Assembly (NCBI GenBank): GCA_012513855.1
Contig: JAAZBK010000327.1
Location: 1 to 35,221 of the forward strand
Source: Acidimicrobiales bacterium
GTDB lineage: Bacteria > Actinomycetota > Acidimicrobiia > Acidimicrobiales > Iamiaceae
Direction: 5' to 3'
DNA: 35,221 nt
Shown: positions 1 to 18,869 of the stretch, in pieces
Position numbering within the stretch: the first letter of the stretch is position 1
Layout: each line of letters begins with the position of its first letter
Made by a program: the position numbers and the translations under genes
The notes under the pieces: generated by a model
Database searches by the model: none
What the model saw: only the letters and a program-made list of their open reading frames with translations
What the model was told of the DNA's origin: nothing

Positions 1-932
1 GCGACCCACCACGCCAACAGCTTCGCCACGCACAGCACGGCGATCGTGCCGACGGCGAGGCGACTCTGCAGGACATCGCTGATGACGCCGTAGCCCACGC
101 CCAGGGCCCGGGGCGCGACCAGACCGACCAGCGAGAAGCCGAGGGCCCCGATCGGTGGATGCCAGAAGGGGTTGACGGGAAGACGCCGGAACCCGGCCTC
201 GAACATGAAGAGCCCCCGGTTGACCACCACCGCGAGGATTCCGCAGGCCAAGCCGAGCAGCGCGTAGAAGGGAAGCTTGTCCAACCCGGCGTAGTCGTGG
301 GGCGGAACGTCGAACAGCGGGCCCTCATCGAACACCCAGTGGTGGACGCCGGCAGCGAGGCTCGATGCCACGACCAGCGGCACGAACGCCCGCGACGACA
401 TCTCGAAGAGGAGCAGCTCGATGGCCAGGATCACCGCGGCCAGCGGTGATCCGAAGGTGGCCGACATCCCGGCCGCCGCTCCGCAGGCCAGGAGGATCTT
501 CCGCTCCGATGGCGATGTCGGGACGACCTGTCCGATCAGGGATCCGAGGGCCCCGCCGGTCACGATGATCGGGCCCTCGGCTCCGAAGGGGCCACCGGTG
601 CCGATGGCCACGGCGGCCGACACGGGCTTGGCCAGGGCCGTCCGAGGGCTGATGCGGCTCTGGTTGGTCAGTACGGCCTCCATGGCCTCGGGGATGCCGT
701 GGCCGCGGACCTGGGGCGACCACTGGGCGATCAACGACACGCACACCCCGCCGAGGACGGCTGCGACCACCAGCCACGGCCCTCGGGTCACCTCCGCCAG
801 GTCTGGGGTCGACCACTCGAAGCGGTGGAACAGGGCCAGGTTCGTGAGCAGGCCGATGAGGTGGACCAGCGCCCAGGCAGCAGCTCCGCCGATCAGCCCG
901 AGCGCGGCGGCGAGGAGCGTGAGGAGCGCCAT
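1..932 (-). CDS. ClC-family voltage-gated chloride channel/transporter (C-terminus cut by window edge)
   Basis: Minus-strand frame read by hand (absent from the ORF track because it runs off the window): MALLTLLAAALGLIGGAAAWALVHLIG...GGPFGAEGPIIVTGGALGSLIGQ...; glycine-rich G-x-x-G-x-E-G-P type selectivity motif. Open to base 1. Confidence 0.85.
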   Translation of the reverse strand, partial: MALLTLLAAALGLIGGAAAWALVHLIGLLTNLALFHRFEWSTPDLAEVTRGPWLVVAAVLGGVCVSLIAQWSPQVRGHGIPEAMEAVLTNQSRISPRTALAKPVSAAVAIGTGGPFGAEGPIIVTGGALGSLIGQVVPTSPSERKILLACGAAAGMSATFGSPLAAVILAIELLLFEMSSRAFVPLVVASSLAAGVHHWVFDEGPLFDVPPHDYAGLDKLPFYALLGLACGILAVVVNRGLFMFEAGFRRLPVNPFWHPPIGALGFSLVGLVAPRALGVGYGVISDVLQSRLAVGTIAVLCVAKLLAWWV

Positions 933-1054
933 CCGGCGCGGCGGGGTGCTGCGGTCACCGGCGATCGAGATGTCCTCTCAACCCGGCAGTGGGTCAAAAA
1001 CATCGTAGAACGATCTTTTGGCCGGTGCTCGGGAGCGCGGCAAGGCCCCAGAGG

Positions 1055-1930
1055 TCAGGGTTCTCCGGCGTCGCCCGTCTCGTAGGTGAAGCTGGAGATG
1101 TCGTCGCGCGATGGGTCGATCAGGCCCTCGGCGTTCAGGTGCGGGAAGTGGTCGTTGTCGACGAACCTCTTGCCCGGCGCGAGACCGAACTGGTCGTAGT
1201 GGGGGTGGGTCAGCCCGATGTAGATGGTGTCGCTGCGGATGTAGCGGAACGCCACCGCCTCCCGTCGCCCGGGCCCGTCGTTGCGGCGGGACCCGTGGAG
1301 GGTCAGCTCCCAGTGAGCTTGGGCGTCGCCGGCCTTCATGGCCTTGCCCCCCACGATCTCGTTGTCTGCGAGGTGGGGGTAGGCGTCGCGGATGTCGCGC
1401 TGCTCGATCAGGCCGAGCGGACCTTCCAGGTGTGAGCCCTTCAGGTAGCGCAGCGGCCCCATCTCCGGGGTCATGTCGACGAGGGCGATCCAGAGGGTGA
1501 CGCAGCCCTTCCGGTCGAACGGCCAGTACGAGTAGTCCTGGTGGTACGGGATGGCGCGGGCGCCCTCGGGCTTGAAGAAGCTGATGTCCTGGCAGAACAC
1601 GGCGTCGAGCTGCTCGAGCAGGCCGACGACGGCGCTCGACAGTCGCCGGGAGGTGGCCACGCTGCGCACGAAGGGATCTCGCCAGGCCACGCCTTCGTGG
1701 CTGAGCAGGGCGTTGGGGTCGGCGGGGGGCTTGTCGGGACCGCTGATGGTGGTCCGTGGCTCGGCCGCCAGCAGGGCGTCTCGGAGCTTCTCCACGGTGT
1801 CGAGGTCGAGCAGGCCAGGGATCGATGCCCAGCTGTCCTGGTGGAGGCTGCGCACCTGCTCGCCGGTGATCGGGTACGCCGTGTCGAGGCTGCGGTCGCT
1901 CAAGTCGGGACGCTCGTCGGTCAGGCTCAC
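1055..1930 (-). CDS. Phytanoyl-CoA dioxygenase (PhyH) family Fe(II)/2-oxoglutarate oxygenase
   Basis: Translation with ...IPYHQDYSYWPF... and ...LRYLKGSHLEGPLG...; GTG start at 1930 preferred over track start 1966, because the promoter/operator at 1938-1966 lies between them. Confidence 0.85.
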   Translation of the reverse strand: MSLTDERPDLSDRSLDTAYPITGEQVRSLHQDSWASIPGLLDLDTVEKLRDALLAAEPRTTISGPDKPPADPNALLSHEGVAWRDPFVRSVATSRRLSSAVVGLLEQLDAVFCQDISFFKPEGARAIPYHQDYSYWPFDRKGCVTLWIALVDMTPEMGPLRYLKGSHLEGPLGLIEQRDIRDAYPHLADNEIVGGKAMKAGDAQAHWELTLHGSRRNDGPGRREAVAFRYIRSDTIYIGLTHPHYDQFGLAPGKRFVDNDHFPHLNAEGLIDPSRDDISSFTYETGDAGEP

Positions 1931-1941
1931 GCCACCGAAAA

Positions 1942-1958
1942 TAGACCGATCGGTCCAA
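1942..1958. promoter_or_regulatory. TetR-type operator copy 1, inside the PhyH promoter
   Basis: Minus strand TTGGACCGATCGGTCTAT; -35 TTGACC (1961-1966) and -10 TATTTT (1938-1943) with 17-nt spacer flank/overlap it. Confidence 0.75.
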
Positions 1959-2027
1959 AGGGTCAACCGGCCCGCCCCAGCCCCGTCCCACGCACCGGAC
2001 CCGGGCCCGGCGGGTTCTGGGGTCGGA

Positions 2028-2153
2028 CTCGTTCTGGTAGTGATCCGTGCCCTGTGAGAGCAGGTTCGGTGACCAGAACGAGTTGAGTTGGGGCCTTCCT
2101 CGTTCTGGTAGTGATTCAGGCTCCGTGGGAGCAGGTTCGGTGACCAGAAGCCG
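2028..2153. repeat. Two direct copies of a 55-bp element (2028-2082 and 2099-2153), period 71 bp; copy 1 has 11-bp terminal inverted repeats
   Basis: CTCGTTCTGGTAGTGAT...GAGCAGGTTCGGTGACCAGAAC/GCCG in both; copy 1 ends CTCGTTCTGGT / ACCAGAACGAG. Confidence 0.85.
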
Positions 2154-2167
2154 TTCGGCGTCTCGGC

Positions 2168-3214
2168 TCAGAGGGATCGGGCGAAGGCGACGATGTCGCT
2201 CAGGGTGGCGCGGACGACGTCGGGGATGGCGGCGAAGTAGTTGTTCTCGGCGGCGTGGAAGGTGCCGTTGACGGTGCGGCACCGGGCGGGCACGCCCGCG
2301 GCCAGGAGCTTGCGGTAGTAGGCGAGGCCTTCGTCGCGCAACGGATCGAGCTCGTTGACCGAGATGGCGTGGGGCGGCAGGTCGGCCACGTCTTCGCCGC
2401 TGGCGTGGTGGGGCCACGCCAGCGGGTTGTCGGCGTCGGCGTCCTCGGGCGTGTACGCCTTGGCCATGGCGCCGAGCATCGCCACCGACACCAAGAGGCC
2501 GTCGTTGTCGGTGAGCGACGGCAGGTCTTCGGTTGGGGCCGCGTATGCGTTCGACACGTAGGGGCAGAGCGCGTAGACGCCGTCGACGCGAGCGAGAACA
2601 CCGTCGCGCTTGGCCTTCAGCGCGGTGGCGAGCGACAGGTTGCCGCCACCGGAATCGCCCGACACCAGCACGGCCGACAGGCCCAGCTCGCTGCGGTTGG
2701 CGTCGATCCACTCCAGACCGGCCGCGCAGTCGTTCAGGCCTGCCGGGAACGGGTGGGTACCCAACCGTCCGGCACCGTTGCGGAACTCGACTCCCACCAC
2801 CACGGTTCCGAGCGCCGCCAGCTCGTCGCGCCAGCGCACGTAGCCCACGTCGGCGGCCGACAACATCACGCCACCGCCTCCGTGAAGGTGGAGGATCCCG
2901 GGGACGGGTTCGTCGACCGTCGATGGACGGTGGACGTAGAGGGTGACCTCGTTGCCGTCGGCACCGGTGACGGTCTCGGTGGATCGATCCACCCCGGTGA
3001 CCTCCGGCAGGCCCGCGGTGGAGAACTCGAGCATCTTGGCCGAGCCGGCTTCGAGCTTGCCCAGCACCTTGCGGATGACCTCGAGGTCGGTGCCGGCGTC
3101 GATGGTCGACGGCGGCAGCGGGTCGGCGAGGCCCATGGGCGCGACCGCCGCTACGAGGCGGGGGTCGACCCGCGGGTCGTCGCGGAGGGCTGGGCGATCG
3201 GTGGTGTCGGTCAT
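2168..3214 (-). CDS. Alpha/beta hydrolase, HSL-type carboxylesterase/lactonase-like
   Basis: HLHGGGGVML oxyanion motif and GDSGGG nucleophile elbow; start MTDTTDRP overlaps (ATGA) the upstream SDR stop. Confidence 0.85.
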   Translation of the reverse strand: MTDTTDRPALRDDPRVDPRLVAAVAPMGLADPLPPSTIDAGTDLEVIRKVLGKLEAGSAKMLEFSTAGLPEVTGVDRSTETVTGADGNEVTLYVHRPSTVDEPVPGILHLHGGGGVMLSAADVGYVRWRDELAALGTVVVGVEFRNGAGRLGTHPFPAGLNDCAAGLEWIDANRSELGLSAVLVSGDSGGGNLSLATALKAKRDGVLARVDGVYALCPYVSNAYAAPTEDLPSLTDNDGLLVSVAMLGAMAKAYTPEDADADNPLAWPHHASGEDVADLPPHAISVNELDPLRDEGLAYYRKLLAAGVPARCRTVNGTFHAAENNYFAAIPDVVRATLSDIVAFARSL

Positions 3215-3975
3215 GCGGAGGCTCCTCCGTCGATGGGGATGGCGAGGCCGGTGAGGTAGGCGGAAGCGTCGGAGGCCAGGAAGAGGGCGGTGCCGGCCAC
3301 GTCGTCGACCGTTCCGACCCGGCGCATCGGGTTGTGGGCCGCGATCTGTTCGAGGGTGCCGCGGACCGTGCCGTCTTCGATGTCTCGTCGCAGGGCCGGG
3401 GTGTCGGTGGCGCCGGGGCAGATGGCGTTGGCCCGGATCCCGTGAGGAGCCACCGACACCGCGAGCGACTTCACGAACTGGATCAGTGCTGCCTTGCTCG
3501 CCGCGTAGGTGAACATCCCCGGCACCGGCCGCAGCCCCGCAGTGGAGGCGGTGTAGATGAGCGACGCGCTCTCTGCCGCCTTGAACCGTGGCATGAGCCG
3601 CTTGGTGAGCTCCATGGGTGCCCACACGTTCACGACCATGGTCTGGTTCCAGTCTTCGGCGTCCCACTTCCAGCCGCCGGTGCCCGGGAGGCCGGCGTGG
3701 TTCAGGAAGACATCGATCACCTCGTGATCGAGCCCGTCGGCCCAGGGGCCGAGGCCCGCCTGGTCGCCCACGTCGACGATGTGGATCTCTACCGATCCGC
3801 CGGCCGCGGTGATGGACGCGGCCGTCTCTGCCAGCGCCGCCTCGTCACGGTCGGCGATGATCACCAGCGCGCCGTTGGCGGCGAACAGCTCCGACGCGGC
3901 CCGGCCCATGCCGGAAGCGCCGCCGGTGACGAGGGCGGTCCTACCCGATAGCTGCGGGCTGCTCGCCACGGTCAC
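3211..3975 (-). CDS. Short-chain dehydrogenase/reductase
   Basis: TGGASGMGRA Rossmann motif, YAASKAALIQF active site, C-terminal AIPIDGG; GTG start with GGGAGG nearby. Confidence 0.9.
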   Translation of the reverse strand: MTVASSPQLSGRTALVTGGASGMGRAASELFAANGALVIIADRDEAALAETAASITAAGGSVEIHIVDVGDQAGLGPWADGLDHEVIDVFLNHAGLPGTGGWKWDAEDWNQTMVVNVWAPMELTKRLMPRFKAAESASLIYTASTAGLRPVPGMFTYAASKAALIQFVKSLAVSVAPHGIRANAICPGATDTPALRRDIEDGTVRGTLEQIAAHNPMRRVGTVDDVAGTALFLASDASAYLTGLAIPIDGGASA

Positions 3976-5596
3976 CTCCCGAGGGCTCGCCCGGACTCGG
4001 GGCCAGGTGGAGGGCCGACCAGTCGCCCGCCTTCAGCTCGTCGATGTAGCGGAACAGGACCGGCCGGCCACCCGGGTTGAGCAGGTACTTGATGGGCTTG
4101 CCGGGGATGTTGCCCCCGAAGAAGTAGCTGCTCTCGTTGAACAGCGCGTGGCGAGCCAGCTTGTCGACCATGGCGGTGAAGTCGGACTCCAGCTCCTCGG
4201 GTACGTCGACCACGCCGAGGCCTCGATCGCGCATGACCCTCAGGAGTTCGGCCACGTAGTCGACCTGATCGGAGTTGTAGCGGGGGACGTTGGCGCTGGC
4301 GCCGTGGGGCCCGCCGGGGAAGAAGAAGTTGGGGAAGCCCGTGGTCTGGACGCCGAGGTAGGTCTTGGGGCCGTCGACCCAGTGGTCCTCGAGCACCTTG
4401 CCGTCCACCCCTCGCACGCCCAGCCGGCAGAGCTGGCCGGTGCCGTAGTCGAAGCCGGTGGCCCACACGATGAGGTCGAACTCCTCGTGGCCGGCCGTGG
4501 TCTCGATGCCGGTCTCGGTCACCCGGACCATGGGCGTGTCGACCAACGAAACCAACGACACGTTGGGCTGGTTGAACACCTCGAAGTAGCCGTTGACGAA
4601 CGGCGGCCGCTTCTCGCTGAAGCCGTGGTCGGTGGGGATCAGCTTGCTGGCCGTGGCGGGATCGTCCACGATCGAGCGGATCTTCTCGGCGATGAAGTCG
4701 CACCACTCCCGGTTGAGCTCGGGGTTGTAGGTGAGGTCCTTGTAGCTGTCGAGCAGCTTGGCGAAGCCGGGGCTGTTCCACATCTGCTCGTAGAACTCGC
4801 GGCGCTCCTCCGGGGTGGCGTGCGCCTCCCGGCTCGGGGCCGGCGCCAGGAACCCGGTGGCCGAGGTGTTCAGCGTGTCCCGGATCCACTCGTAGCGGGC
4901 TCGCAGGTCGGCCTGCTCCTCGTCGGTGATCGGGCTGTTGTTGAGCGGCGTGCACCAGTTGGGCGTGCGCTGGTAGACGGTGAGCGACGCGGCCTCGGCG
5001 GCGATGGCCGGGATCACCTGCACCCCGCTCGACCCCGTGCCGATCACCGCCACCCGCTTGCCCGCCAGCTCGACCGGCTCCTGGGGCCAGCGTCCGGTGT
5101 GGTGGGACTCGCCGCGGAAGTCTTCCCGCCCGGCGACGTCGGGGAAGTAGGGCAGCGACAGCATCCCGGTGGCGGCCACCACGAAGCGAGCGTTCCAGGT
5201 TCGACCGTCGGCCGCGGTCACCAGCCAGGTCCCCGTGGCGTCGTTCCACACCACCGAGGTGACCTCGGTGCCGAAGCGGATGTGGGGCTCGAGCTCGAAC
5301 TTCTCGGTGAAGCGCTGGAAGTAGCGCTCGATCTCGGGCTGGGCCGCGAAGTGTTCGGTCCACTCCCACTCCTCGAACAGCTCCTGGTCGAACACGTAGA
5401 CGTACGTGTAGCTCTCCGAGTCGAACCGGGCGAGCGGGTAGCGGTTCCAGAACCAGGTGCCGCCGACGCCGTGCCCCGCCTCCAGCAGAACAGCCGAGAA
5501 CCCGTCTGCTCTGGCCTTCTGGAGCTGGTAGAGCCCGGTGACGCCGGCCCCTATCACCAGGACGTCGACCTCTTCTGGTGCGTTGTCTGCTTCCAT
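3941..5596 (-). CDS. Flavin-dependent Baeyer-Villiger monooxygenase (cyclohexanone monooxygenase type)
   Basis: GAGVTG and GTGSSG dinucleotide-binding motifs; BVMO fingerprint FRGESHHTGRWP (FxGxxxHTxxW). Confidence 0.92.
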   Translation of the reverse strand: MEADNAPEEVDVLVIGAGVTGLYQLQKARADGFSAVLLEAGHGVGGTWFWNRYPLARFDSESYTYVYVFDQELFEEWEWTEHFAAQPEIERYFQRFTEKFELEPHIRFGTEVTSVVWNDATGTWLVTAADGRTWNARFVVAATGMLSLPYFPDVAGREDFRGESHHTGRWPQEPVELAGKRVAVIGTGSSGVQVIPAIAAEAASLTVYQRTPNWCTPLNNSPITDEEQADLRARYEWIRDTLNTSATGFLAPAPSREAHATPEERREFYEQMWNSPGFAKLLDSYKDLTYNPELNREWCDFIAEKIRSIVDDPATASKLIPTDHGFSEKRPPFVNGYFEVFNQPNVSLVSLVDTPMVRVTETGIETTAGHEEFDLIVWATGFDYGTGQLCRLGVRGVDGKVLEDHWVDGPKTYLGVQTTGFPNFFFPGGPHGASANVPRYNSDQVDYVAELLRVMRDRGLGVVDVPEELESDFTAMVDKLARHALFNESSYFFGGNIPGKPIKYLLNPGGRPVLFRYIDELKAGDWSALHLAPSPGEPSGGDRGEQPAAIG

Positions 5597-5608
5597 CGGC
5601 GCTGATAT

Positions 5609-5625
5609 TAGACCGATCGGTCCAA
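5609..5625. promoter_or_regulatory. TetR-type operator copy 2, in the BVMO promoter
   Basis: Minus strand TTGGACCGATCGGTCTAATAT; -10 TAATAT (5605-5610) then 8 nt to ATG 5596. Confidence 0.75.
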
Positions 5626-5703
5626 TGTCGGGTCAACAGCTCTTCGAGCGGACCCGATCTCTGCCATCGGCGGTCCGCGATACCGAACTGATACCGTCGG
5701 GGC

Positions 5704-5907
5704 ATGGCCATGACCCTTCGCCTCACCGAGCAGGAACAGCAGGCGCTTCGCGAGAGCGCGGCAGCAGAGGGGATCTCCATGCAGGACGCTGCCCGTCGGG
5801 CGATCCGCGACTACGTCGCCCGACAGGACCACCGCAACCGGGTGGTGGCGGCGAGCGATCGCATCGCCGAGGTCCACGCTGACGCGCTCGACCGCCTGGG
5901 TAGGTGA
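5704..5907 (+). CDS. Ribbon-helix-helix-like antitoxin
   Basis: 67 aa MAMTLRLTEQEQQALRESAAAEGISMQDAARRAIRDYV...; GTGA overlap with the downstream Fic/Doc gene. Confidence 0.8.
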   Translation: MAMTLRLTEQEQQALRESAAAEGISMQDAARRAIRDYVARQDHRNRVVAASDRIAEVHADALDRLGR

Positions 5908-6287
5908 CGGATCCAGTCGAGTTCCTCGACCTCGACGACATCTTGTGGTTGGTCGGGCGGCACCTCGGAGATCCCCCGCCGATCCGCGACGTCGGGCTTC
6001 TGGCATCTGCGGTGGCGCGGCCCCAGACCACGGTCCTCGGGGAGGATGCCTATCCGACGATCTGGACCAAGGCAGCTGCCCTCCTCCAGTCGGTCGTCAA
6101 CAACCATGCACTGGTCGACGGCAACAAGCGGCTCGGTTGGCTGGCCACGGCCACGTTCCTGGAGCTCAACGGCGCCAGCGTCGCGGGCGCAGACAACGAC
6201 GGCGTCTACGACCTTGTCATCGACGTGGCGACGAACGATCCGTCGTTGGACGAGATCGCGGGACGGCTGGAGGCGTTCGCCGGGTAG
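5904..6287 (+). CDS. doc: Doc-type (Fic fold) toxin of a type II toxin-antitoxin system
   Basis: 127 aa with HALVDGNKR, matching the Fic/Doc motif HxFx(D/N)GNKR. Confidence 0.88.
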   Translation: MTDPVEFLDLDDILWLVGRHLGDPPPIRDVGLLASAVARPQTTVLGEDAYPTIWTKAAALLQSVVNNHALVDGNKRLGWLATATFLELNGASVAGADNDGVYDLVIDVATNDPSLDEIAGRLEAFAG

Positions 6288-6293
6288 CCGGGG

Positions 6294-8267
6294 TCAGACG
6301 GCGGCCAGGCGGCGGAGGGCTGCGGCGATGTCTTCGCGGTCGGGGAGCCAGGCCTGCTCGAGGTCGGGCGCGTACGGCGCCGGGGTTGGGGCCGCTCCGA
6401 TTCGCTCGATGGGGGCGTCGAGGTCCCAGAACGCCTCTCTCGCCACCACCGCGGCGATCTCGGCGCCGATGCCGAACGGGAGCGTGGCCTGGTGGGCGAT
6501 GAGCAGACGGCTGGTGCGGGCCACCGACTCCAACACCGGGCCGAGGTCGAGCGGGGCGACGGTGCGGAGGTCGATCACCTCGACCGAGACCCCCTCCTCG
6601 GCCAGGGCGTCGGCGGCTGCGAGGCACTCGACCACCATCTTGGAGACCGACACCAGCGTGACGTCGGTGCCGGGCCGGATAACGGCCGATCGACCGAGCG
6701 GGACCAGGTGGTCGGCGGGCGGACGGGGGCCCTTCATGCCGTACTGGAGCCGGTTCTCCACGAACACCACCGGGTTGGGATCCTGGATGGCCGCCCGGAG
6801 CAGGCCGTAGGCGTCGGCGGGGTTCGAGGGCATGACCACCGTGAGTCCCGGGATGTGGGCGAGGAGCGCCTCCAGGCTCTGGGAGTGCTGGCTGCCCGAC
6901 GACCGGCCGGCGCCGAACTGGGTGCGCACGGTGAGGGCCATCTCGGCCGCGCCACCGGTCATGAAGGGGAGCTTCGCCGCCTGGTTCAGGAGTTGGTCGA
7001 GGCAGACGCCGACGAAGTCGAAGTACATCAGCTCCACCACCGGCTTCATGCCGGCCATGGCCCCTCCCACGCCGAGGCCCATGATGGCGGTCTCGGAGAT
7101 CGGCGTATCGCGAACCCGGTCGCCGAAGCTGTCGCGCAGGCCACGGGTGAGGCCGAAGACGTTGCCGCCCTCGCCCACGTCGATGCCCGCCACGAACACG
7201 CTCGGATCGTTCGTCAGCTCGTGCTCCAGCGCGTCGTGGATGGCATCCATCATCCGGAACACCGGCGCATCGGCCAGCGGGGCCGGAGGTTCGGGTATCT
7301 CGGGACGGGGCCTGAGCACGAAGTCGAACAGAGCGCTGACAGGAGGCTGGACGGTGGCCCGGGCCGACTCGACCGCCGCGTCGAGCGCGCTGTCGACGGC
7401 GTCCTCGATCGCCTTCAGATCGCCCTCGGCGACGCCGGCAGCGACGAGGCGGGCGTGGTGGATCACGATCGGGTCGCGCTGCTTCCACTCGGCGAGCTCG
7501 TCTGCCTCCCGGTAGCTCTCGGGGTCTCCCTCGTAGTGGCCGTGCCAGCGGTATGTGGTGGCCTCCACCAGTACCGGCCTGCTCCCGGAGCGCAAACCCT
7601 GGGCGACGCCGGCCATGGCCGCGGCGCACGCCACCACGTCGTTGCCGTCGACGGCCACGTAGTCGATGCCGTAGCCGGCAGCCCGCTGCTCCAGCGTGGC
7701 GGCGTGCTGGGTGGAGGCGGGGGAGAACTCGGCGTACCCGTTGTTCTCACACCAGAACACCACCGGAAGCTCCCAGACCGCGGCCAGGTTCACCGCTTCG
7801 TGGAAGGCCCCTTGGGCGACGGCACCGTCGCCGAAGAACGCCACCGCCACGTTGCCGTCGGCCCGGAGCTGGTTGGCCGCAGCGGCCCCGACGGCGATGG
7901 GCAGGCCGGCGCCGACGATGCCGTTGGCACCGAAGATTCCGAGGGTGGGGTCGGCGATGTGCATGGAACCGCCCCGGCCCCGGTTGGTGCCGCTGTCGCG
8001 AGCCATCAGCTCGGCGAACATGCCCAGCGGGTCGAGCCCCTTGGCCAGGCAGTGCCCGTGGCCGCGGTGGGTCGAGGTGATGGCGTCGCCCGGCCCGAGC
8101 GGCCAGCACGCCCCGACGGCGGACGCCTCCTGTCCTGTCGACAGGTGCACGAAGCCGGGCACCTCGCCCGCCTTGTACATCTTCGACACCCGCTCCTCGA
8201 AGCCCCTGATCACCAGCATCCGCCGGTGCATCTCGAGCAGGTCGCTCACCTGCGGTTCGGCACTCAC
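6294..8267 (-). CDS. Fused thiamine-diphosphate dehydrogenase E1 alpha-beta (2-oxo acid/acetoin dehydrogenase type)
   Basis: N-half E1 alpha (RRMLVIRGFEERVSKMYKAGEVPGFVHLSTGQEA...GDGAVAQGAFHEA...NNGYAEFSP), C-half E1 beta (DAIHDALEHELTNDPSVFVAGIDVG...PISETAIMGLGVGGA...); GTG start 8267 overlaps the TetR stop (GTGA). The track start at 8831 is in the TetR gene, out of frame. Confidence 0.88.
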   Translation of the reverse strand: MSAEPQVSDLLEMHRRMLVIRGFEERVSKMYKAGEVPGFVHLSTGQEASAVGACWPLGPGDAITSTHRGHGHCLAKGLDPLGMFAELMARDSGTNRGRGGSMHIADPTLGIFGANGIVGAGLPIAVGAAAANQLRADGNVAVAFFGDGAVAQGAFHEAVNLAAVWELPVVFWCENNGYAEFSPASTQHAATLEQRAAGYGIDYVAVDGNDVVACAAAMAGVAQGLRSGSRPVLVEATTYRWHGHYEGDPESYREADELAEWKQRDPIVIHHARLVAAGVAEGDLKAIEDAVDSALDAAVESARATVQPPVSALFDFVLRPRPEIPEPPAPLADAPVFRMMDAIHDALEHELTNDPSVFVAGIDVGEGGNVFGLTRGLRDSFGDRVRDTPISETAIMGLGVGGAMAGMKPVVELMYFDFVGVCLDQLLNQAAKLPFMTGGAAEMALTVRTQFGAGRSSGSQHSQSLEALLAHIPGLTVVMPSNPADAYGLLRAAIQDPNPVVFVENRLQYGMKGPRPPADHLVPLGRSAVIRPGTDVTLVSVSKMVVECLAAADALAEEGVSVEVIDLRTVAPLDLGPVLESVARTSRLLIAHQATLPFGIGAEIAAVVAREAFWDLDAPIERIGAAPTPAPYAPDLEQAWLPDREDIAAALRRLAAV

Positions 8268-8893
8268 CGTTCGATTCCTCCCAGGAAGATGCGGGCGAAG
8301 TGGTCGGCCACCTCGCGGGCCGACAGGTCTCCGCCCGGCCGCAACCACAGGTACGTGTAGTTGTGGGTGCCCAGCCACGCCCGGGCGGTCAGCCGGGCGT
8401 CGTGGACCTCGAAGGCGCCGCTGGTCGCGCCGTCGGCGATCACCTGCTCCACGATGTCCTCGAACGCCCGACGCCGGGCCCGCAGCGCGACCGCGTTCTC
8501 GCCGGTGACCGCGGTGAACTCGTGGAGGAAGACCCGCACGTGATCGGGGTAGTGGAAGATCACGTCCAGGTACTCCCGGCCCAGCTCCCGGAGCCGGTCG
8601 CCGGGGGTGCCCTCGGCCACCGCGGCCCGCTCGGCGCCGGCCAGCACCTCGTCCATCACCCGGTCGATGATGAGCGCCAGCAGCTCCTCCTTGGAGCCGA
8701 TGTAGTAGTAGAGCGCCCCCTTGCCCAGCTCGTTCGCCTCGCACAGCTCGGTGGTGCTGGTGGCGTGGAAGCCCTGTTCGGCGAACAGGCGGGCGGATCG
8801 GTCGATCACCTCGTCCCGGCGGCGGTGCCACTTGGCGCTGCGCCGATCATCGGGCGGGGCGGACGCGGTTGGGGTCTCTTGCGCAGCGGCCAC
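8264..8893 (-). CDS. TetR/AcrR family transcriptional regulator
   Basis: HTH RDEVIDRSARLFAEQGFHATSTTELCEANELGKGALYYYIGSKEELL; GTG start at 8893 (not 8959), since operator copy 3 and a TATGAT box lie between. Confidence 0.88.
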   Translation of the reverse strand: MAAAQETPTASAPPDDRRSAKWHRRRDEVIDRSARLFAEQGFHATSTTELCEANELGKGALYYYIGSKEELLALIIDRVMDEVLAGAERAAVAEGTPGDRLRELGREYLDVIFHYPDHVRVFLHEFTAVTGENAVALRARRRAFEDIVEQVIADGATSGAFEVHDARLTARAWLGTHNYTYLWLRPGGDLSAREVADHFARIFLGGIER

Positions 8894-8908
8894 GAGGCGA
8901 TCATATTC

Positions 8909-8926
8909 TTGGACCAAGCGGTCTAA
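8909..8926. promoter_or_regulatory. TetR-type operator copy 3, between tetR and the acyl-CoA synthetase gene
   Basis: TTGGACCAAGCGGTCTAA; 16/18 identical to copy 2. Confidence 0.75.
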
Positions 8927-9070
8927 GGAGGCGAGCCGATAGGCGAGCCGACCAGACAAGCATCGTGGGTAAACCGAGGCGCCAGCCGAGGTCCGAACAA
9001 CATCGACGCGACGACGGCTGGACCTGTCCGCTCGAGTCCTAAGAACCGCCCATCCGCGGCGGAGAGGGAG

Positions 9071-10678
9071 ATGCCCGTGTCTGCACCAGGAACCACCAGC
9101 CCGACGTGGTCATCAGCCGAGACGACACCGGCCGACACGCCGTCGACCGGCGGCGACCTGAGCTGGGTGGCGGTGCTGGAGCACCACGCCCATCGGTTCC
9201 CCGACCACGTGATCGCCCGCTGCGGCGACCGGTCGGTCACCTACGCCGAGATGGTCGACTGGAGTTCACGGGTGGCCACGGGCCTGGCCGAGCGTGGCGT
9301 GGTGGCGGGCGACGTGGTGGGCTTGCTCTCCTACAACAGCGCCGAGTTCCTGGCGACGATCTTCGCCGCCAACTCCCTCGGGGCCACGGCCATGCCGGTG
9401 AACTGGCGACTGGCCGCCCCCGAGCTGCGCTACCTGCTGGAGCACTCCGGTGCCCGCGCCTTCGTGTGCGACGGCGAGCTGATCGAGCTCGGCGAAGCCG
9501 CCAGCAGCGGGCTCGACCAGCCCCTGGCGCGGGTGGTCGTGCCCACGCCCGAAACGCAGGAGGCCCCCGGTTGGGACCTCTTCGAGGACCTGGCCGCGTC
9601 GCCACCGCTCGCCGAGCGGCTGCCGGCGCGGGCCGACGACGTGCACCGGCTCATGTACACCTCGGGCACCACCGGCAGGCCCAAGGGCGTGATGATCACC
9701 CACGCCAACCTGGCCTGGAAGAACACTGCCCACGTCGCCGAGTTCGGGTTCACGTCGGCCGACATCGGCCTCGCCTGCGGCCCGCTCTACCACGTGGGTG
9801 CGCTCGACCTGGTCACCACCACGATGATCGCGGTGGGCGCCACCACCCTGATCCATCGCACCTTCGACGCCGCCGCGGTGATCGACGAGATCGAGCGATC
9901 CAAGGTCTCCCTGGTCTGGATGGCGCCCGCCATGTTGCGGGCGGTGCTCGACGAGCCGGGCGTCGACGAACGTGACCTGTCGTCGGTCCGGGTGATCATC
10001 GCGGGCGGCGAGAAGCTGCCGATCCCCTTCATCGACCGCTTGGAGCGCACCTTCCCGTCGGCGTGGCTGGCCGACGCCTACGGGCTCACCGAGACGGTCT
10101 CGGGAGACACGTTCCTCGACCGGGCCAACGTGCGGGCCAAGCTCGGCAGCGTGGGCCGGGCCTGCCTGTACCTCGACCTGGAGATCTGGGACGAGACCGG
10201 AAGCCCGGTGCCGCCCGGCGAGAAGGGCGAGGTGGTGCTGCGGGGGCCGAAGGTGTTCGCCGGCTACTGGCGAGACCCCGACGCCACGGCCCGTGCGTTC
10301 GCCGGCGGTTGGTTCCACACCGGCGACGTGGGCATCGAGGACGACGACGGCTACGTCTACATCGTCGACCGCCTCAAGGACATGATCATCTCGGGCGGGG
10401 AGAACATCGCCGGTTCCGAGGTCGAGCGGGTTCTGTACGAGCACCCCGCTGTCCTGGAGGCGGCGGTGGTGGGCCGGTCCCACGAGCGGTGGGGCGAGGT
10501 GCCGGTGGCCCACGTGGTGGTGCGACCGGGGTCGGAGGTGTCGGCCGATGAGCTGATCGAGCACTGCCGGGGACAGCTCGCCAAGTTCAAGGTGCCCGCC
10601 GCGGTCGAGTTCCTCGACGCGCTGCCCCGCAATCCGTCGGGCAAGGTCCTCAAGCGAGAGCTGCGGGCAGGCTCGTGA
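9071..10678 (+). CDS. AMP-dependent acyl-CoA synthetase/ligase
   Basis: YTSGTTGRPKGVMITHANL, ADAYGLTET, GWFHTGDVG, DRLKDMIISGGENI, C-terminal NPSGKVLKRELR; SD GGAGAGGGAG directly before ATG. Confidence 0.93.
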   Translation: MPVSAPGTTSPTWSSAETTPADTPSTGGDLSWVAVLEHHAHRFPDHVIARCGDRSVTYAEMVDWSSRVATGLAERGVVAGDVVGLLSYNSAEFLATIFAANSLGATAMPVNWRLAAPELRYLLEHSGARAFVCDGELIELGEAASSGLDQPLARVVVPTPETQEAPGWDLFEDLAASPPLAERLPARADDVHRLMYTSGTTGRPKGVMITHANLAWKNTAHVAEFGFTSADIGLACGPLYHVGALDLVTTTMIAVGATTLIHRTFDAAAVIDEIERSKVSLVWMAPAMLRAVLDEPGVDERDLSSVRVIIAGGEKLPIPFIDRLERTFPSAWLADAYGLTETVSGDTFLDRANVRAKLGSVGRACLYLDLEIWDETGSPVPPGEKGEVVLRGPKVFAGYWRDPDATARAFAGGWFHTGDVGIEDDDGYVYIVDRLKDMIISGGENIAGSEVERVLYEHPAVLEAAVVGRSHERWGEVPVAHVVVRPGSEVSADELIEHCRGQLAKFKVPAAVEFLDALPRNPSGKVLKRELRAGS

Positions 10679-13217: not shown

Positions 13218-13667
13218 GTGCCCATCGAGTTCCTGGACATCCTCGCCGACGACGGCTGGGTCGCCCGTCCGGTCGATCCGGCTGCGCCGGACGCTCTGTG
13301 GAGCGAGGGCGGGTCTCTCGCCGACGCGCCGGTCGACGTGGCCGCCACCTTCGCGGGCCGGTCGGTCTCGACCGCCATGGACCCGACGTTCGCGCTCGAC
13401 GGGATCCGCCTGGCGCCCGGCTTCGCCATCCCGCGGCACCGCCACGACCAGCAGGTCCTGCGCATCGTCTTCGGTGGCACCCTCGAGGTGCGGTCCGACG
13501 ACGAGGTCGCCCAGCTCCGCGCCGGTCAGTTCTGCGTGATCGACGCCGGCACCGTGCACTCCGTGGTGGCCGGTCCCGACGGCGCCACCTACACCGAGTC
13601 CTGGCACCTGGAGGCCCCACCCGTGCAGACCACCTGGCATCCGGACCCCGCGTGGGTCACGCCATGA
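13218..13667 (+). CDS. Cupin-domain protein, paralogue of the 12624-13130 gene
   Basis: GTG start VPIEFLDILADDGWVARPVD...PRHRHDQQVLRIVFGGTLEV...AGQFCVIDAGTVHSVVAGPDGATYTESWH; stop overlaps the next ATG. Confidence 0.75.
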   Translation: MPIEFLDILADDGWVARPVDPAAPDALWSEGGSLADAPVDVAATFAGRSVSTAMDPTFALDGIRLAPGFAIPRHRHDQQVLRIVFGGTLEVRSDDEVAQLRAGQFCVIDAGTVHSVVAGPDGATYTESWHLEAPPVQTTWHPDPAWVTP

Positions 13668-15289
13668 CCGCGCCCGGCCCTACAGGCATCGAAGCGGTGG
13701 ACCCTGCAAACCCGGGGGAGCGCTTCGACGTCATCGTGGTGGGCACCGGCGGTGGGTTGATCGGCGCCTTCGCCGCCGCCAGCCGCGGCCTGCGCACCCT
13801 GGTGATCGAGAAGGCGTCCCACGTGGGCGGTACCACCGCCTACTCCGGGGCCGGGATCTGGCTGCCGGGCAACCCCGCGATCCTGCGCGCCGGGCTCGAC
13901 GACTCCCCGGAAGCAGCACGTCCCTACCTCGACGAGATCATCGGCGACAGCGCCCCGGTCGAGCTCCGCGAGGCCTACCTCCACGCTGGCCCACCGATGA
14001 TCGAGGAGCTGGAGAAGGATCCGTCGTTCGGCGAGTTCTTCTGGCGCAGCATCCCCGAGTACTACGCGGGCCGTCCCGGCTTCTCCAAGGCCGGCCGGAC
14101 CATCTTCCCGAGGGACCTGCCGCGCGCCGAACTGGGCGACCTGGAGCCGTTGGTTCGCCGCCCGTTGTGGACAGAGCGGTGGGGTACCCCCGAGGGCGAC
14201 GTCATGGTGGGCGGTCAGGCGTTCGCCGGCCGGGCCCTGGCCGCGGTGATGGGCACCGGCAACGTCACGCTGTTGACGTCGACGGCTCTCGAATCACTGG
14301 TGGTCGAGGACGGCCGGGTGGTCGGCGTCGATGCCGTCCGCAGCGGTGAACCGGTGCGCTTCCTGGCCGACCGTGGCGTCCTCCTGGCCGCTGGCGGGTA
14401 CGACCACAACGCAGAGATCCGACTCGAGCACCAGGCCCCCCTGGACGGCGAGTGGTCGTCGGGCGTACCCGAGAACACCGGCGACGCGCTCAGCGCCGCG
14501 GTGGCGGTGGGGGCCGACACGGCCCTGCTCGACGAGGCCTGGTACGCCCCCGGCGTGGTCACGCCGGTGGGTGGCCCGGTCTTCTACACCATGGTGTGGG
14601 GTGGGGTCTGGGTGAACTCCGCGGGCGAGCGGTTCATGAACGAGCGCCTGCCCTACGACCGCGCGGGCCACGAGCTGATGCGCCTCCACGGCGTCGACGG
14701 CAACGACACCATCCCGGCCCACTGGGTGTTCGACCAGCGCCAGGTCGACGCCAAGGCGTTCACCTTCCTGCCGGTCGACCCGCAGGTGCCCGACTGGTTC
14801 GACGTCGACCGCTGGGTCGAGGCCGGCGCCCTGGTCAAGGCCGACACGTTGGAGGACCTGGCCGATCGGATCGGAGTGCCCGCCGAGAACCTGGCCGCCA
14901 CCGTCGACCGCTACAACGGGTTCGCCCTCGCAGGCGTCGATGAGGACTTCCACCGTGGCGAATCGCCGTGGGACCGCGTGATCGCCGGGGTCGTCAAGCC
15001 GCACACCGACGGACCCAACAAGTGCCTCGGCGTGCTCGACCAGGCCCCCTACTACGCGGTGAAGGTGGTGGTGACAGACCTGGGCACCAAGGGAGGCGTG
15101 CGCACCGACGCCAACGGCAGGGTGTTGCGGTCCGACGATTCGGTGATCGAGGGCCTCTACGCGTCGGGCAACACCATGGCCCCCGCGCTCGGACGCATCT
15201 ACCCCGGGGCCGGTGGACCGATCGGCTCGGCCATGGTCTTCAGCTGGCTCGCCGCGCTCGACATGGCCGGCGAGACCTTCCAGGCCTGA
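13664..15289 (+). CDS. FAD-binding dehydrogenase, 3-ketosteroid-delta1-dehydrogenase/fumarate-reductase-like
   Basis: FDVIVVGTGGGLIGAFAAASRGLRTLVIEKASHVGGTTAYSGAGIWLPGN...; C-terminal GLYASGNTMAPALGRIYPGAGGPIGSAMVFSW. ATGA coupling to the cupin. Confidence 0.88.
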   Translation: MTAPGPTGIEAVDPANPGERFDVIVVGTGGGLIGAFAAASRGLRTLVIEKASHVGGTTAYSGAGIWLPGNPAILRAGLDDSPEAARPYLDEIIGDSAPVELREAYLHAGPPMIEELEKDPSFGEFFWRSIPEYYAGRPGFSKAGRTIFPRDLPRAELGDLEPLVRRPLWTERWGTPEGDVMVGGQAFAGRALAAVMGTGNVTLLTSTALESLVVEDGRVVGVDAVRSGEPVRFLADRGVLLAAGGYDHNAEIRLEHQAPLDGEWSSGVPENTGDALSAAVAVGADTALLDEAWYAPGVVTPVGGPVFYTMVWGGVWVNSAGERFMNERLPYDRAGHELMRLHGVDGNDTIPAHWVFDQRQVDAKAFTFLPVDPQVPDWFDVDRWVEAGALVKADTLEDLADRIGVPAENLAATVDRYNGFALAGVDEDFHRGESPWDRVIAGVVKPHTDGPNKCLGVLDQAPYYAVKVVVTDLGTKGGVRTDANGRVLRSDDSVIEGLYASGNTMAPALGRIYPGAGGPIGSAMVFSWLAALDMAGETFQA

Positions 15290-15304
15290 GATCGGCCGCA
15301 AAGC

Positions 15305-15335
15305 CTGACCTCCCCGGTGGGGATCCGGAGGTCAG
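15305..15335. terminator. Hairpin after the KstD-like gene (terminator or 5' element of the lipoprotein gene)
   Basis: CTGACCTCC-CCGGTGGGGATCC-GGAGGTCAG, perfect 9-bp arms. Confidence 0.5.
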
Positions 15336-15348
15336 TTAGCGTTCTCGC

Positions 15349-15939
15349 ATGGCGATGAGACGTGAGATCAGCACGGTCCTGGTGGTAGCGGCACTGGCCC
15401 TGGCGGGCTGCAGCGACGGAGGAGGAGACGACGATGCCGCACCCGATGCCTCCGACGGCTCTGAGCAGACCGTCGACGACGGCACCGAGACCCCGTCCGA
15501 CGCGGATGGCGGCGGCGATGTGAGCGAGGTCGATGCGGGCGACACCGATGCCGGCGAGGTCGATGGCGGCGAGGTCGACTGTGCAGCCATGGAGGCGGCC
15601 CTGTCGGAGTTCACCAGCGTCCAGTTGCTCGCCCAGATCCGGGACCCCGGCTCGATCGAGACGCTGAAGCTTGGTTCGCTGACCGTTGTCGAGCTCGACG
15701 CCCTCGAGCAGGCCCTCACCGAACTGGAGGTGCTCGACGGCTACTCCAACGACATGGGCGATCCCGCCGAGGCCATCGACAACCTGCAGGCAGCGGTGGC
15801 CGAGGCCCGAGGTCTGTTCGAGGCCGACCCCGTCACCCAGGAAGCGATCGACGCCTACAACGAGAGCATCGGGACCTTGGCGGAGTTCCTCGGCAACCAG
15901 GTGCCAATCAGCGCGGCGCTCGACGAGGCCGGCTGCTGA
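15349..15939 (+). CDS. Small acidic lipoprotein
   Basis: Signal peptide and lipobox LALAGC, then Asp/Gly/Glu-rich linker (DAGDTDAGEVDGGEVD) and a helical domain. Confidence 0.75.
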   Translation: MAMRREISTVLVVAALALAGCSDGGGDDDAAPDASDGSEQTVDDGTETPSDADGGGDVSEVDAGDTDAGEVDGGEVDCAAMEAALSEFTSVQLLAQIRDPGSIETLKLGSLTVVELDALEQALTELEVLDGYSNDMGDPAEAIDNLQAAVAEARGLFEADPVTQEAIDAYNESIGTLAEFLGNQVPISAALDEAGC

Positions 15940-15969
15940 TCCCGCCGTCGATCGGTCCCTCGGCCAGCG

Positions 15970-16995
15970 CTACCTGGCGGCCTCGGCCAGACCGACCGCG
16001 ATCTCGATGATCTGGTCCTCCTGGCCGCCCACGAGGCCGCGCTCGCCGCAGGCCAACAGGATGTCGGCGCCCGAGACGCCGTAACGATCTGCTGCCCGGT
16101 AGGCGTGGCGCAGGAACGAGGAGTACACGCCCGCGTAGCCCATGATCAGCGCCAGCCGGTCGAGCTTGGCCTCGCCGTCCATGATCGGGTGGACCACGTC
16201 CTCGGCCACGTCGAACATCTCCAGCACGTCGATGCCGGTGCGGATTCCGAGTCGCTCGCACACGGCAGCGAACGCCTCGGTGGGCGTGTTGCCGGCACCG
16301 GCACCGAACCGGCGGGTGCACGCGTCGATCTGCACCGCCCCGGCGCGGATCGCGTAGAGCGAGTTGGCGATGCCGAGCGCCAGGTTCTCGTGACCGTGGA
16401 AGCCCACCTGAGCGTCGTCGCCCAGCTCGGCCACCACCGCCGATACGCGATCGCTGACCTCCTCGAGGATCATCGCCCCCGCGGAATCGACCACGTACAC
16501 GCACTGGCAACCCGAGTCGGCCATGATCCGGGCCTGTTCGGCCAGCAGTTCCGGTGGCTGGGAGTGGGCCATCATCAAGAACCCCACCGTCTCCAGACCC
16601 TTCTCGCGGGCCAGGCCGAAGTGCTGGACGGCGATGTCGGCCTCGGTGCAGTGGGTGGCGATGCGGATCACCGAGGCGCCCAGGTCGGCCACCGCGGTGA
16701 TGTCCTCCTTGGTGCCCAGCCCCGGCAGCATGAGCGCGGCGATCTTGGCGCGGGTGGCGGTCTCCACCGCCGCGGCGATCAGCACCCGCTCGTCCTCGAG
16801 GCCGAAGCCGTAGTTGAACGACGATCCGCCCAACCCGTCGCCGTGGGTCACCTCGATCACGGGGACCCCGGCGCGGTCCAGTCCGCCGACGACGTCGCGC
16901 ACCATCTGGGTCGTGAACTGGTGGCCCTTGGCGTGGGAGCCGTCGCGGAGCGACGAGTCGGTGACCCTGATGTCGAGCTCTTCGGAGTACGGCAT
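15970..16995 (-). CDS. 4-hydroxy-2-oxovalerate aldolase (DmpG/HsaF family)
   Basis: [20 protein letters not shown]...[17 protein letters not shown]...[14 protein letters not shown]...; 1-nt overlap with the acetaldehyde dehydrogenase gene. Confidence 0.93.
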
Positions 16996-17906
16996 CAGAC
17001 GGTGACCTCGGTGGTGGCGGGCGACTTGGCGATGTGGCGGGCGATCTCCTCGCCGACCTTGGTGGCCGCCGCCGTCATGATGTCGAGGTTGCCGGAGTAC
17101 GGAGGGAGGTAGTCGCCCGCCCCCTCGACCTCGATGAAGATCGTGACCCGGGCCGGTCGGCCCTTCTCGGCGGGGTCGAACTGGGGACGCTGGCGCAGCC
17201 GGTAGCCGGGGACGTACTGCGCCACCCCGGATGCCACGTCGTCGATGGATGCCTCGATGGCCGCGTGGTCTGCGTCGTCGGGGATCTGGCAGTAGATCGT
17301 GTCGCGCATGATCAGCGGCGGCTCGGCCGGGTTGAGGATGATGATTGCCTTGCCCCGCTCCGCTCCGCCGAGCACCTCGACGGCCGACGACGTGGTGCGG
17401 GTGAACTCGTCGATGTTGGCTCGGGTGCCCGGGCCCGCCGACTTGGAGGCCACCGTGGCCACGATCTCGGCGTAGGGCACGTCGACCACCCGGGAGACGG
17501 CGTGGACCATCGGGATGGTGGCCTGTCCGCCGCAGGTGACCATGTTGACGTTCATCTCGTCGATGTGCTCGGTGAGGTTCACCACCGGGATCGTGTACGG
17601 GCCGATGGCCGCTGGCGTCAGGTCGACGGCTCGGATGCCGGCCTCCTGGTAGCGGGGGGCGTTGGCGACGTGGGCGTAGGCCGACGTGGCCTCGAAGACG
17701 ATGTCGGGTAGCTCGCCGTGGTCGAACATCCAGTCGACTCCCTGGTCGACGGCCTCCACCCCGTGCTCACGGGCGATGGCCAGCCCCTCGCTGCGGGGGT
17801 CTATGCCGACCATGTAGCGGAGTTCGAGATCGGTCGAGCGGAGGAGCTTGAACATCAGGTCGGTGCCGATGTTCCCAGTTCCGACGATGGCGGCTGTCGG
17901 CTTCAT
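16995..17906 (-). CDS. Acetaldehyde dehydrogenase (acylating), DmpF/HsaG family
   Basis: [20 protein letters not shown]...[20 protein letters not shown]...[14 protein letters not shown]. Confidence 0.94.
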
Positions 17907-18008
17907 GGATCCATCGTGCAGCTTTGCGTTGTGTGGTGCGACAACCGCATCCCACCCGGCGAGACGAGGTCAGGCTGGGTCCATGGGCCGCTGGTACCTT
18001 CGCCGGCG

Positions 18009-18869
18009 ATGAGAGTGCGCTCACTTGCCTACCTCCGACTGGGTTCGCCCGACGTCGACGCCTGGCGGGTCTTCGCCGGCGACTTCCTCGGGTTGATGCC
18101 CGTCGACGGCGGCAACTCCGACGCCGCGTACTTCCGCATGGACGACTTCCCCGCTCGCCTCGTCGTGGAGCCGTCAGCTGAGGCCGCGGCAACCGCCATC
18201 GGCTTCGAGGTCATGGACCGGCGGGAGCTGGCCGCCCTTGCCGAGGCCGTCAGCGCGCACGGCATCGAGGTGGTCGCGGGTACGCCGGAAGAGTGCGTCG
18301 AGCGACAGGTCACCGGCTTCGTCCGCTTCGCCGATCCCGGCGGAAACCCCATCGAGCTCGCCTACGGGCCGATCCTCCAGCACGATCCCGTGCAGACCCC
18401 CAACGTGTCGGGCTTCGTCACGGGTGGCCTCGGTCTCGGTCACGTGATCGTGAGCGCGGAGGACGGAGAGGCCCAGTACGACTTCTACACCGGCGTCCTC
18501 GGATTCGTGGAGCGCAACACCATGGCCGGCGGCCGGGTGGTGTTCATGGGTTGCAACCCCCGTCACCACACGCTCGGCATCAACACCCGCCGGGGTCCGG
18601 GGCGGCTCATGCACCTCATGTTGGAGGTGGCCACGCTCGACGACGTCGGACGCGGCCTGGATCGTGCCCACCGCCTGAAGATCCCGATGATGCACACGCT
18701 GGGCAAGCACACCAACGACCGCATGGTGTCGTTCTACGTGTACTCACCGGAGAACTACGCCATCGAGTACGGCTGGGACGGCCTCCTGGTGGAGGACGAG
18801 GTTCCCACCTATGAGATCTCCGCCGGCGCCTTCTGGGGCCACAGGTTCACGCCCCCGCCGGAGCGGTGA
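18009..18869 (+). CDS. Type I extradiol (VOC) dioxygenase, BphC/HsaC-like
   Basis: GLGHVIVSAED...NPRHHTLGIN...RLMHLMLEVATLDDVGRGLDRA...VSFYVYSPENYAIEYGWDG, consistent with the His/His/Glu metal site. Confidence 0.9.
   Translation: MRVRSLAYLRLGSPDVDAWRVFAGDFLGLMPVDGGNSDAAYFRMDDFPARLVVEPSAEAAATAIGFEVMDRRELAALAEAVSAHGIEVVAGTPEECVERQVTGFVRFADPGGNPIELAYGPILQHDPVQTPNVSGFVTGGLGLGHVIVSAEDGEAQYDFYTGVLGFVERNTMAGGRVVFMGCNPRHHTLGINTRRGPGRLMHLMLEVATLDDVGRGLDRAHRLKIPMMHTLGKHTNDRMVSFYVYSPENYAIEYGWDGLLVEDEVPTYEISAGAFWGHRFTPPPER

Follow-up and report, generated by a model that had tools for sequence, protein, structure and literature searches.

What do three nearly identical palindromes, each lying just upstream of a gene start, do in the 35,221-nucleotide stretch of Acidimicrobiales DNA analysed here (the window), and which protein, if any, reads them? 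The sites and genes concerned are the following.

Operator 1, TTGGACCGATCGGTCTAT, 1941..1958, minus strand: 5' of PhyH, filling the spacer of TTGACC (1961-1966)-17-TATTTT (1938-1943)
Operator 2, TTGGACCGATCGGTCTAA, 5608..5625, minus strand: 5' of BVMO-SDR-esterase, overlapping TAATAT (5605-5610)
Operator 3, TTGGACCAAGCGGTCTAA, 8909..8926, plus strand: between the divergent TetR-E1 and ACS; weakest copy, with a non-palindromic centre, AAGC
1055..1933, minus strand: PhyH-type Fe(II)/2-oxoglutarate dioxygenase, whose GTG start is 7 nt away from operator 1
2171..3217, minus strand: alpha/beta hydrolase of the HSL/brefeldin A esterase class, overlapping the SDR end
3211..3975, minus strand: short-chain dehydrogenase/reductase (SDR), overlapping the BVMO end; same transcript
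3972..5596, minus strand: type I Baeyer-Villiger monooxygenase (BVMO) of the PAMO/CHMO/steroid monooxygenase class
6294..8267, minus strand: E1, a fused alpha/beta ThDP-dependent 2-oxoacid-dehydrogenase-type enzyme directly after tetR, the ends overlapping
8264..8893, minus strand: TetR-family regulator of 209 aa; GTG start; TetR_N and TetR_C_24 domains; predicted regulator of all three operators
9071..10678, plus strand: acyl-CoA synthetase (ACS), divergent from tetR; probable extra target of operator 3
25941-27083: ACAD orthologue, counterpart of a strong target in relatives

Three palindromes at gene starts

The three palindromes are real. The pattern TTGGACC-N4-GGTCTAA is matched in the window without mismatch at 5608-5625 and 8909-8926 and with one mismatch at 1941-1958. 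Over the 18 positions, copies 1 and 2 differ at one, copies 1 and 3 at three, and copies 2 and 3 at two, both in the spacer; this last count agrees with that of the initial annotation, whose coordinates were right for 8909-8926 and one base late for the starts of sites 1 and 2 (true 1941 and 5608). The window's own operators read GGACCGATCGGTCTA in a single register. Site 3 is self-complementary at 12 of its 18 positions, and its matrix score is 14.9 versus 27.7.

When up to three mismatches are allowed, the window holds 6 matches versus 1.28 expected, a number that 0 of 100 shuffles reached, and matches with at most one mismatch were absent from 60 first-order Markov windows. Pattern searches of the draft genome (3.75 Mb in 540 contigs, with a completeness of 88.7%) recovered only the three window palindromes at 0-1 mismatch; the scan thus yielded few matches, rather than the hundreds of genomic positions that had been named as the result that would speak against a local regulon. 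Genome matches with three mismatches are background, since a reversed control pattern yields more of them, and the 2-3-mismatch matches at C64 and C250 are members of a second operator class, which is considered below.

The gap between operator and start codon is 7 nt at PhyH (GTG 1933), 11 nt at BVMO (ATG 5596) and 15 nt at TetR (GTG 8893). Within 800-9200, TTGACC-17-TATTTT at PhyH was the single sigma-70-like site reported; TAATAT, at BVMO, shares bases with the end of operator 2; and on the TetR side of site 3, TATGAT lies just downstream, adjacent to the operator and without overlap. The earlier description of the sites as upstream of gene starts and overlapping -10/-35 boxes is therefore right as to placement and, for sites 1 and 2, as to overlap, whereas site 3 is merely adjacent. 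In addition, a terminator-like stem is scored at operator 1.

This arrangement bears on the direction of control. The local TetR could be the right regulator and act as an activator, or have mixed roles, with repression at BVMO and PhyH and weak autoregulation at site 3; that site is weak and lies beside the -10 instead of over it, and many relatives have no TetR-proximal operator. On the other hand, sites 1 and 2 occupy the spacer or cover the -10, where a bound protein blocks RNA polymerase, and repression is usual for characterised TetR-family proteins, and activation or a mixed role is in our judgement very unlikely.

The local TetR and its nearest relatives

The protein encoded at 8264-8893 matches Pfam TetR_N (7e-12) and TetR_C_24 (3e-31), and its predicted model, which is nearly all-helical (pLDDT 84), matches PDB TetR structures. 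By sequence and fold it stands nearest, among solved structures, to PfmR, AibR (structure with isovaleryl-CoA) and KstR2, the top Foldseek match being PfmR 3VPR (E 3.7e-10, 31% identity); the nearest relatives are acyl-CoA-responsive regulators. TetR-family proteins mostly repress, bind short palindromes and often autoregulate, and KstR2 and AibR are acyl-CoA-responsive repressors of catabolic or CoA-ester pathways, with late steroid catabolism under the control of KstR2. KstR2 (Mycobacterium/Rhodococcus) and AibR (Myxococcus) are close to the window TetR in sequence and fold, but the identity is 26% and the target set is different; in addition, the KstR2 operator is probably of a different type from the window operators. 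Similarly, PfmR (TTHB023, Thermus thermophilus, PDB 3VPR) is alike in its TetR fold and ACCG-centred palindrome but belongs to a different phylum and has different target genes, namely fatty-acid genes (PMC7022988); its published consensus operator is TACCGACCGNTNGGTN (PMC7022988). This consensus occurs in operators of relatives of the window TetR, with exact matches in 22 of 144 loci, some of them duplicates, and is absent from the three window sites.

The initial annotation had likened the sites to the E. coli NemR box, given there as TAGACC-N4-GGTCTA, and the half-sites GACC/GGTC would be similar to a box of that form. NemR, however, has a redox-sensing cysteine in its sensor domain, for which the window TetR has no counterpart, its single cysteine (position 51) lying inside the DNA-binding domain. 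Among the genes scanned, none was recognised as a NemA-type reductase. With PfmR, AibR and KstR2 as the best relatives, kinship with NemR was dropped.

Operators in related genomes

Orthologues of the window TetR are 54-66% identical to it, and in Acidimicrobiia and Frankiales the same operator family precedes the orthologues of E1, acyl-CoA dehydrogenase (ACAD), BVMO and PhyH, and often TetR/acyl-CoA ligase. In locus L043, from a different family, the gene order is kept and operators stand at the same three places, 15084 (5' of PhyH), 11577 (BVMO) and 8900 (TetR/ACS gap); its PhyH orthologue, 82% identical, has its own operator. The literal TTGGACCN4GGTCTAA found no match in the first two orthologue loci, where the operators have drifted (GTACCGAYCGGTAC and variants) and were caught by the matrix alone.

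Built from the window together with 16 loci, the matrix gave 70 matches versus 0-4 in Markov controls, and 125 versus 2-4 in 667 kb of later loci; of 33 independent loci held out of the training, 30 contained a match. Among held-out genes, an operator lay upstream of E1 in 14/18 cases, BVMO in 4/4 and ACS in 6/18 (each within 250 bp), ACAD in 12/17 and TetR in 11/32. E1 is the strongest predicted regulon member in the relatives, and autoregulation would not be universal, since an operator stands close upstream of only those 11 among the 32 TetR genes. The window ACAD was checked for an operator and none was found there, though the gene is a strong target in relatives. Several relatives share the divergent ACS-operator-TetR arrangement.

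It might still be asked whether the palindromes are chance or non-regulatory structures, such as terminator stems or repeats, a view that the stem score of site 1 favours. The likelihood of this is negligible, as shuffles gave no match with at most one mismatch, the sites are unique in the genome, and orthologous promoters across two lineages keep them; the comparative results refute it.

At one mismatch or fewer, the family pattern is present in 15/17 TetR-positive genomes versus 1/18 TetR-negative ones (Fisher p 6e-7), a contrast that reflects co-inheritance of the cluster, because the TetR-negative genomes gave no E1 match either, in a search run without a positive control. G009 is TetR-negative, yet has one site, and in G140 (84% complete, 370 contigs) the operator is present and TetR was not found. 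The sharper argument for a tie between TetR and its predicted operator lies with three other genomes. In G038 (98% complete), E1, ACS and ACAD are kept, TetR is missing and the surroundings of E1 hold no operator, and in G102 and G218, whose TetRs are just 32-35% identical, E1 is kept and the operator is absent.

These genomes also bear on whether another TetR, such as a fatty-acid regulator with ACTTGACCGAWCGGTCTAGT as its site, owns the palindromes, with the local TetR as bystander or sharer. The genome that contains the window does hold a second class of operator, which shares the ACCGNNCGGT core and precedes ACS/thiolase, ACAD and other genes, and because this similar class exists, cross-binding by another TetR may occur; indeed, paralogous TetRs can share sites, as do PfmR and SbtR in Thermus (PMC7022988). 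However, at least 3 of 20 positions separate the local sites from this second class, site presence follows orthologues of the local TetR, and sites are lost where E1 persists without it, and we consider ownership by another TetR improbable.

A predicted regulon for a catabolic island

Based on the results presented above, the local TetR very probably docks as a repressor at the three palindromes, and it is highly likely that these, as predicted operators of TetR 8264-8893, serve to repress a catabolic island that a CoA thioester of the pathway would release. The earlier proposal of one regulator, this TetR, for the three units and perhaps for the ligase operon too is backed by the uniqueness of the sites, the conserved operators, their tracking of TetR and the operator losses. 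On the best reading, the protein would be an acyl-CoA-sensing repressor, and the island would comprise BVMO-SDR-esterase, PhyH, E1 and probably the ligase operon, for which synteny is the sole support as a target of operator 3. A TetR dimer would bind each palindrome, where it would cover or adjoin the core promoter of an mRNA that probably has no leader, and would thereby repress PhyH, the operon of BVMO, SDR and esterase and, by autoregulation, the tetR-E1 operon, probably together with the divergent acyl-CoA ligase operon. A CoA thioester from the pathway, most simply the ligase product, would then release the repressor, as the relatives of the protein and the divergent ligase gene suggest.

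A ketone, cyclic or in a side chain, may be the substrate; a steroid is plausible in view of the KstD/Hsa-type steroid-ring-degradation genes that neighbour the predicted regulon. The luciferase-like gene of the window is 23 kb from the BVMO-SDR-esterase operon. A BVMO of the pdc cluster of Caenibius tardaugens, a Proteobacterium, converts progesterone to testosterone acetate (PMC12239570); that cluster is small, with four genes, and the passages of PMC12239570 drawn on here describe no operator in it, whereas the window BVMO forms one operon with SDR and esterase.

As judged from sequence, the regulon is real, ordinary in kind and apparently undescribed; a literature search for it, and for the AibR operator, found nothing useful. 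We suggest tentatively, with rather more doubt than confidence, that it is common to Acidimicrobiia and Frankiales, and that a PfmR-like, acyl-CoA-sensing TetR there governs an undescribed degradation pathway with a core of acyl-CoA ligase, acyl-CoA dehydrogenase, SDRs and the fused ThDP-dependent E1 (no E2 gene was found near it), with BVMO, PhyH or Rieske modules added by lineage, and here feeding the KstD/Hsa-type steroid-ring pathway. A local palindrome guess made from raw sequence has led to a regulon in two bacterial lineages, and the conserved operator, by delimiting the pathway genes, gives a direct handle on the substrate. What results is a regulator-operator pair open to test, with over 100 predicted sites, for one catabolic module; its Acidimicrobiia carriers are mostly uncultured, and the Frankia and Pseudofrankia carriers are culturable.

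Probable operator palindromes and gene layout

The three near-identical palindromes (TTGGACC-N4-GGTCTAA) reported in the initial annotation are present in the window; its position for copy 3 was correct, and its starts for copies 1 and 2 lay one base late. The features of the region are as follows.

1055-1933, minus: PhyH, Fe(II)/2-oxoglutarate dioxygenase (family search)
1941-1958, minus: operator 1 (pattern search)
3972-5596, minus: BVMO, in a BVMO-SDR-esterase series
after BVMO, minus: SDR and esterase; gene ends overlap throughout the series
5608-5625, minus: operator 2 (pattern search)
5704-6287, plus: RHH-Fic pair, between the BVMO and tetR-E1 operons
6294-8267, minus: fused E1, overlapped by tetR
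8264-8893, minus: tetR, GTG start
8909-8926, plus: operator 3 (pattern search)
9071 (start): acyl-CoA synthetase (ACS), divergent from tetR
13583-15289: 3-ketosteroid dehydrogenase homologue (KstD; E 2e-134 to PDB 4C3X)
right of the regulon: VOC protein and cupin (homology)
right of the regulon: HsaF-, HsaG-, HsaC- and HsaE-like genes, IclR regulator, Rieske oxygenase, acyl-CoA dehydrogenase (ACAD), luciferase-like gene

The palindromes differ pairwise at 1, 2 and 3 of 18 positions, and copies 2 and 3 differ, as first described, in the spacer only (2/18). Six window matches were found at up to three mismatches, a level reached by 0/100 dinucleotide shuffles, and 60 Markov windows gave zero matches at up to one mismatch. 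In keeping with the proposed local regulon, only the three window sites match at up to one mismatch in the 3.75 Mb draft genome (540 contigs, 88.7% complete); at up to three, the reversed control pattern gives more matches than the real one, so most of these are background.

The operators had been said to overlap -10/-35 boxes. This holds for PhyH, where the operator occupies the spacer of TTGACC-17-TATTTT (the sole sigma-70-like promoter detected in 800-9200), and for BVMO, where it overlaps TAATAT, but not for TetR, where TATGAT lies just downstream. Operators end 7 nt (PhyH), 11 nt (BVMO) and 15 nt (TetR) before the start codons, gaps too short for a usual leader, which suggests that the mRNAs are probably leaderless.

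Operator conservation and co-occurrence with TetR

The same family and class contain TetR orthologues with 54-66% identity, and 16 of their neighbourhoods were searched with a matrix iterated from five sites in the window and L043, a locus from another family of the order. The 16 loci and the window contain 70 matches, against 0-4 in Markov controls, upstream of E1, BVMO, TetR/ACS and ACAD and of a few cyclase/amidohydrolase, Rieske, SDR and AcuI-like genes. In L043, the order ACS, TetR-E1, BVMO-SDR-esterase, PhyH is identical to that of the window, and all three corresponding positions carry an operator.

Scanning genome contigs with the TetR alignment gave 47 loci, some of them from Frankia, Pseudofrankia and Trebonia; 33 were left as a held-out set once those common to the training set were dropped. 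At least one operator occurs in 30/33, lying within 250 bp upstream of E1 in 14/18, ACAD in 12/17, BVMO in 4/4, TetR in 11/32 and ACS in 6/18. Across the 667 kb of all later loci, the matrix matches 125 times, compared with 2-4 times in controls.

At up to one mismatch, TTGKACYGRYCRGTMCAA occurs in 15/17 genomes with TetR versus 1/18 without (Fisher p = 6e-7); since E1 was not found in the latter either (a search without positive control), this comparison alone shows co-inheritance. Sharper cases came from an E1 search across 395 genomes. One genome (G038, 98% complete) keeps E1 (74%), ACS and ACAD; TetR was not found in it, and the operator is absent from the stretch around E1. Two others (G102, G218) have E1 at 62-66% and TetRs only 32-35% identical, and the operator is again absent around E1. 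The operator is present in G163, whose TetR is truncated by a contig end, and in G140, a fragmented 84% assembly in which TetR was not found.

Genome-wide uniqueness, conserved operators and TetR co-occurrence thus support the prediction that the local TetR regulates the three units, in a conserved and apparently undescribed TetR regulon. Control of BVMO and PhyH is more certain than autoregulation of tetR, because site 3 is a weak copy and not every relative has an operator close to its tetR. The cluster looks accessory, and is possibly a transferred island, since TetR is found in 0/11 congeners (G001-G011) and is present in distant families and Frankiales.

Relatives of the regulator and a second operator class

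The AlphaFold model of the local TetR (pLDDT 84) is nearest to PfmR, AibR, 3DCF and KstR2, and the sequence search concurs; kinship with NemR, whose box the initial annotation likened to these sites, is not supported. AibR structures have been solved with isovaleryl-CoA and operator DNA. The PfmR consensus is TACCGACCGNTNGGTN (PMC7022988), found exactly in 22/144 examined loci, some of them duplicate copies of one locus. Many operators in relatives match it as two overlapping palindromes with registers 4 bp apart (TACCGACCGGTTGGTC; for example L057:2014-2037, L050:7945-7968, L055:12549-12572), which suggests two TetR dimers per site, whereas the window operators have a single register. Given these nearest regulators and the PfmR consensus in relatives, the ligand is likely an acyl-CoA.

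A distinct class in the same genome, ACTTGACCGAWCGGTCTAGT, shares a ACCGNNCGGT core with the local sites and occurs at C64:2611, C250:4098 and 480, C422:1589 and C106:5777 (loci L059, L060, L117, L118), beside ACS/thiolase, acyl-CoA dehydrogenase, P450-like and hydrolase/enoyl-CoA hydratase genes. This class probably marks a further lipid-catabolic TetR regulon, and its existence makes cross-talk possible.

Candidate substrate and neighbouring elements

BVMO, esterase and SDR chemistry converts a ketone to an ester, an alcohol and again a ketone. A KstD/HsaF/HsaG/HsaC/HsaE-like block for steroid- or aromatic-ring degradation (13583-19669) adjoins the regulon; it is syntenic in L043 (73-86% identity), the sole locus of the first set to share it. 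In Caenibius tardaugens, progesterone is turned into testosterone acetate by a BVMO encoded next to a TetR-like regulator (PMC12239570). Because of this precedent and the BVMO-esterase-SDR genes beside KstD/Hsa, a steroid side-chain ketone is a plausible substrate in this genome. KstD/Hsa genes are absent from the examined stretches around the core regulon (ligase, ACAD, E1, SDRs) elsewhere. An E2 gene was not identified near the fused E1, and the two E2-type PF00198 matches in the genome lie on other contigs.

The toxin-antitoxin-like RHH-Fic/Doc pair looks inserted between the BVMO and tetR-E1 operons, because the same junction in L043 is only ~130 bp. An element of ~50 bp whose ends are inverted (GTTCTGGT...ACCAGAA) occurs as two direct copies at 2027-2151, in the gap that separates the end of the esterase gene from the PhyH promoter.
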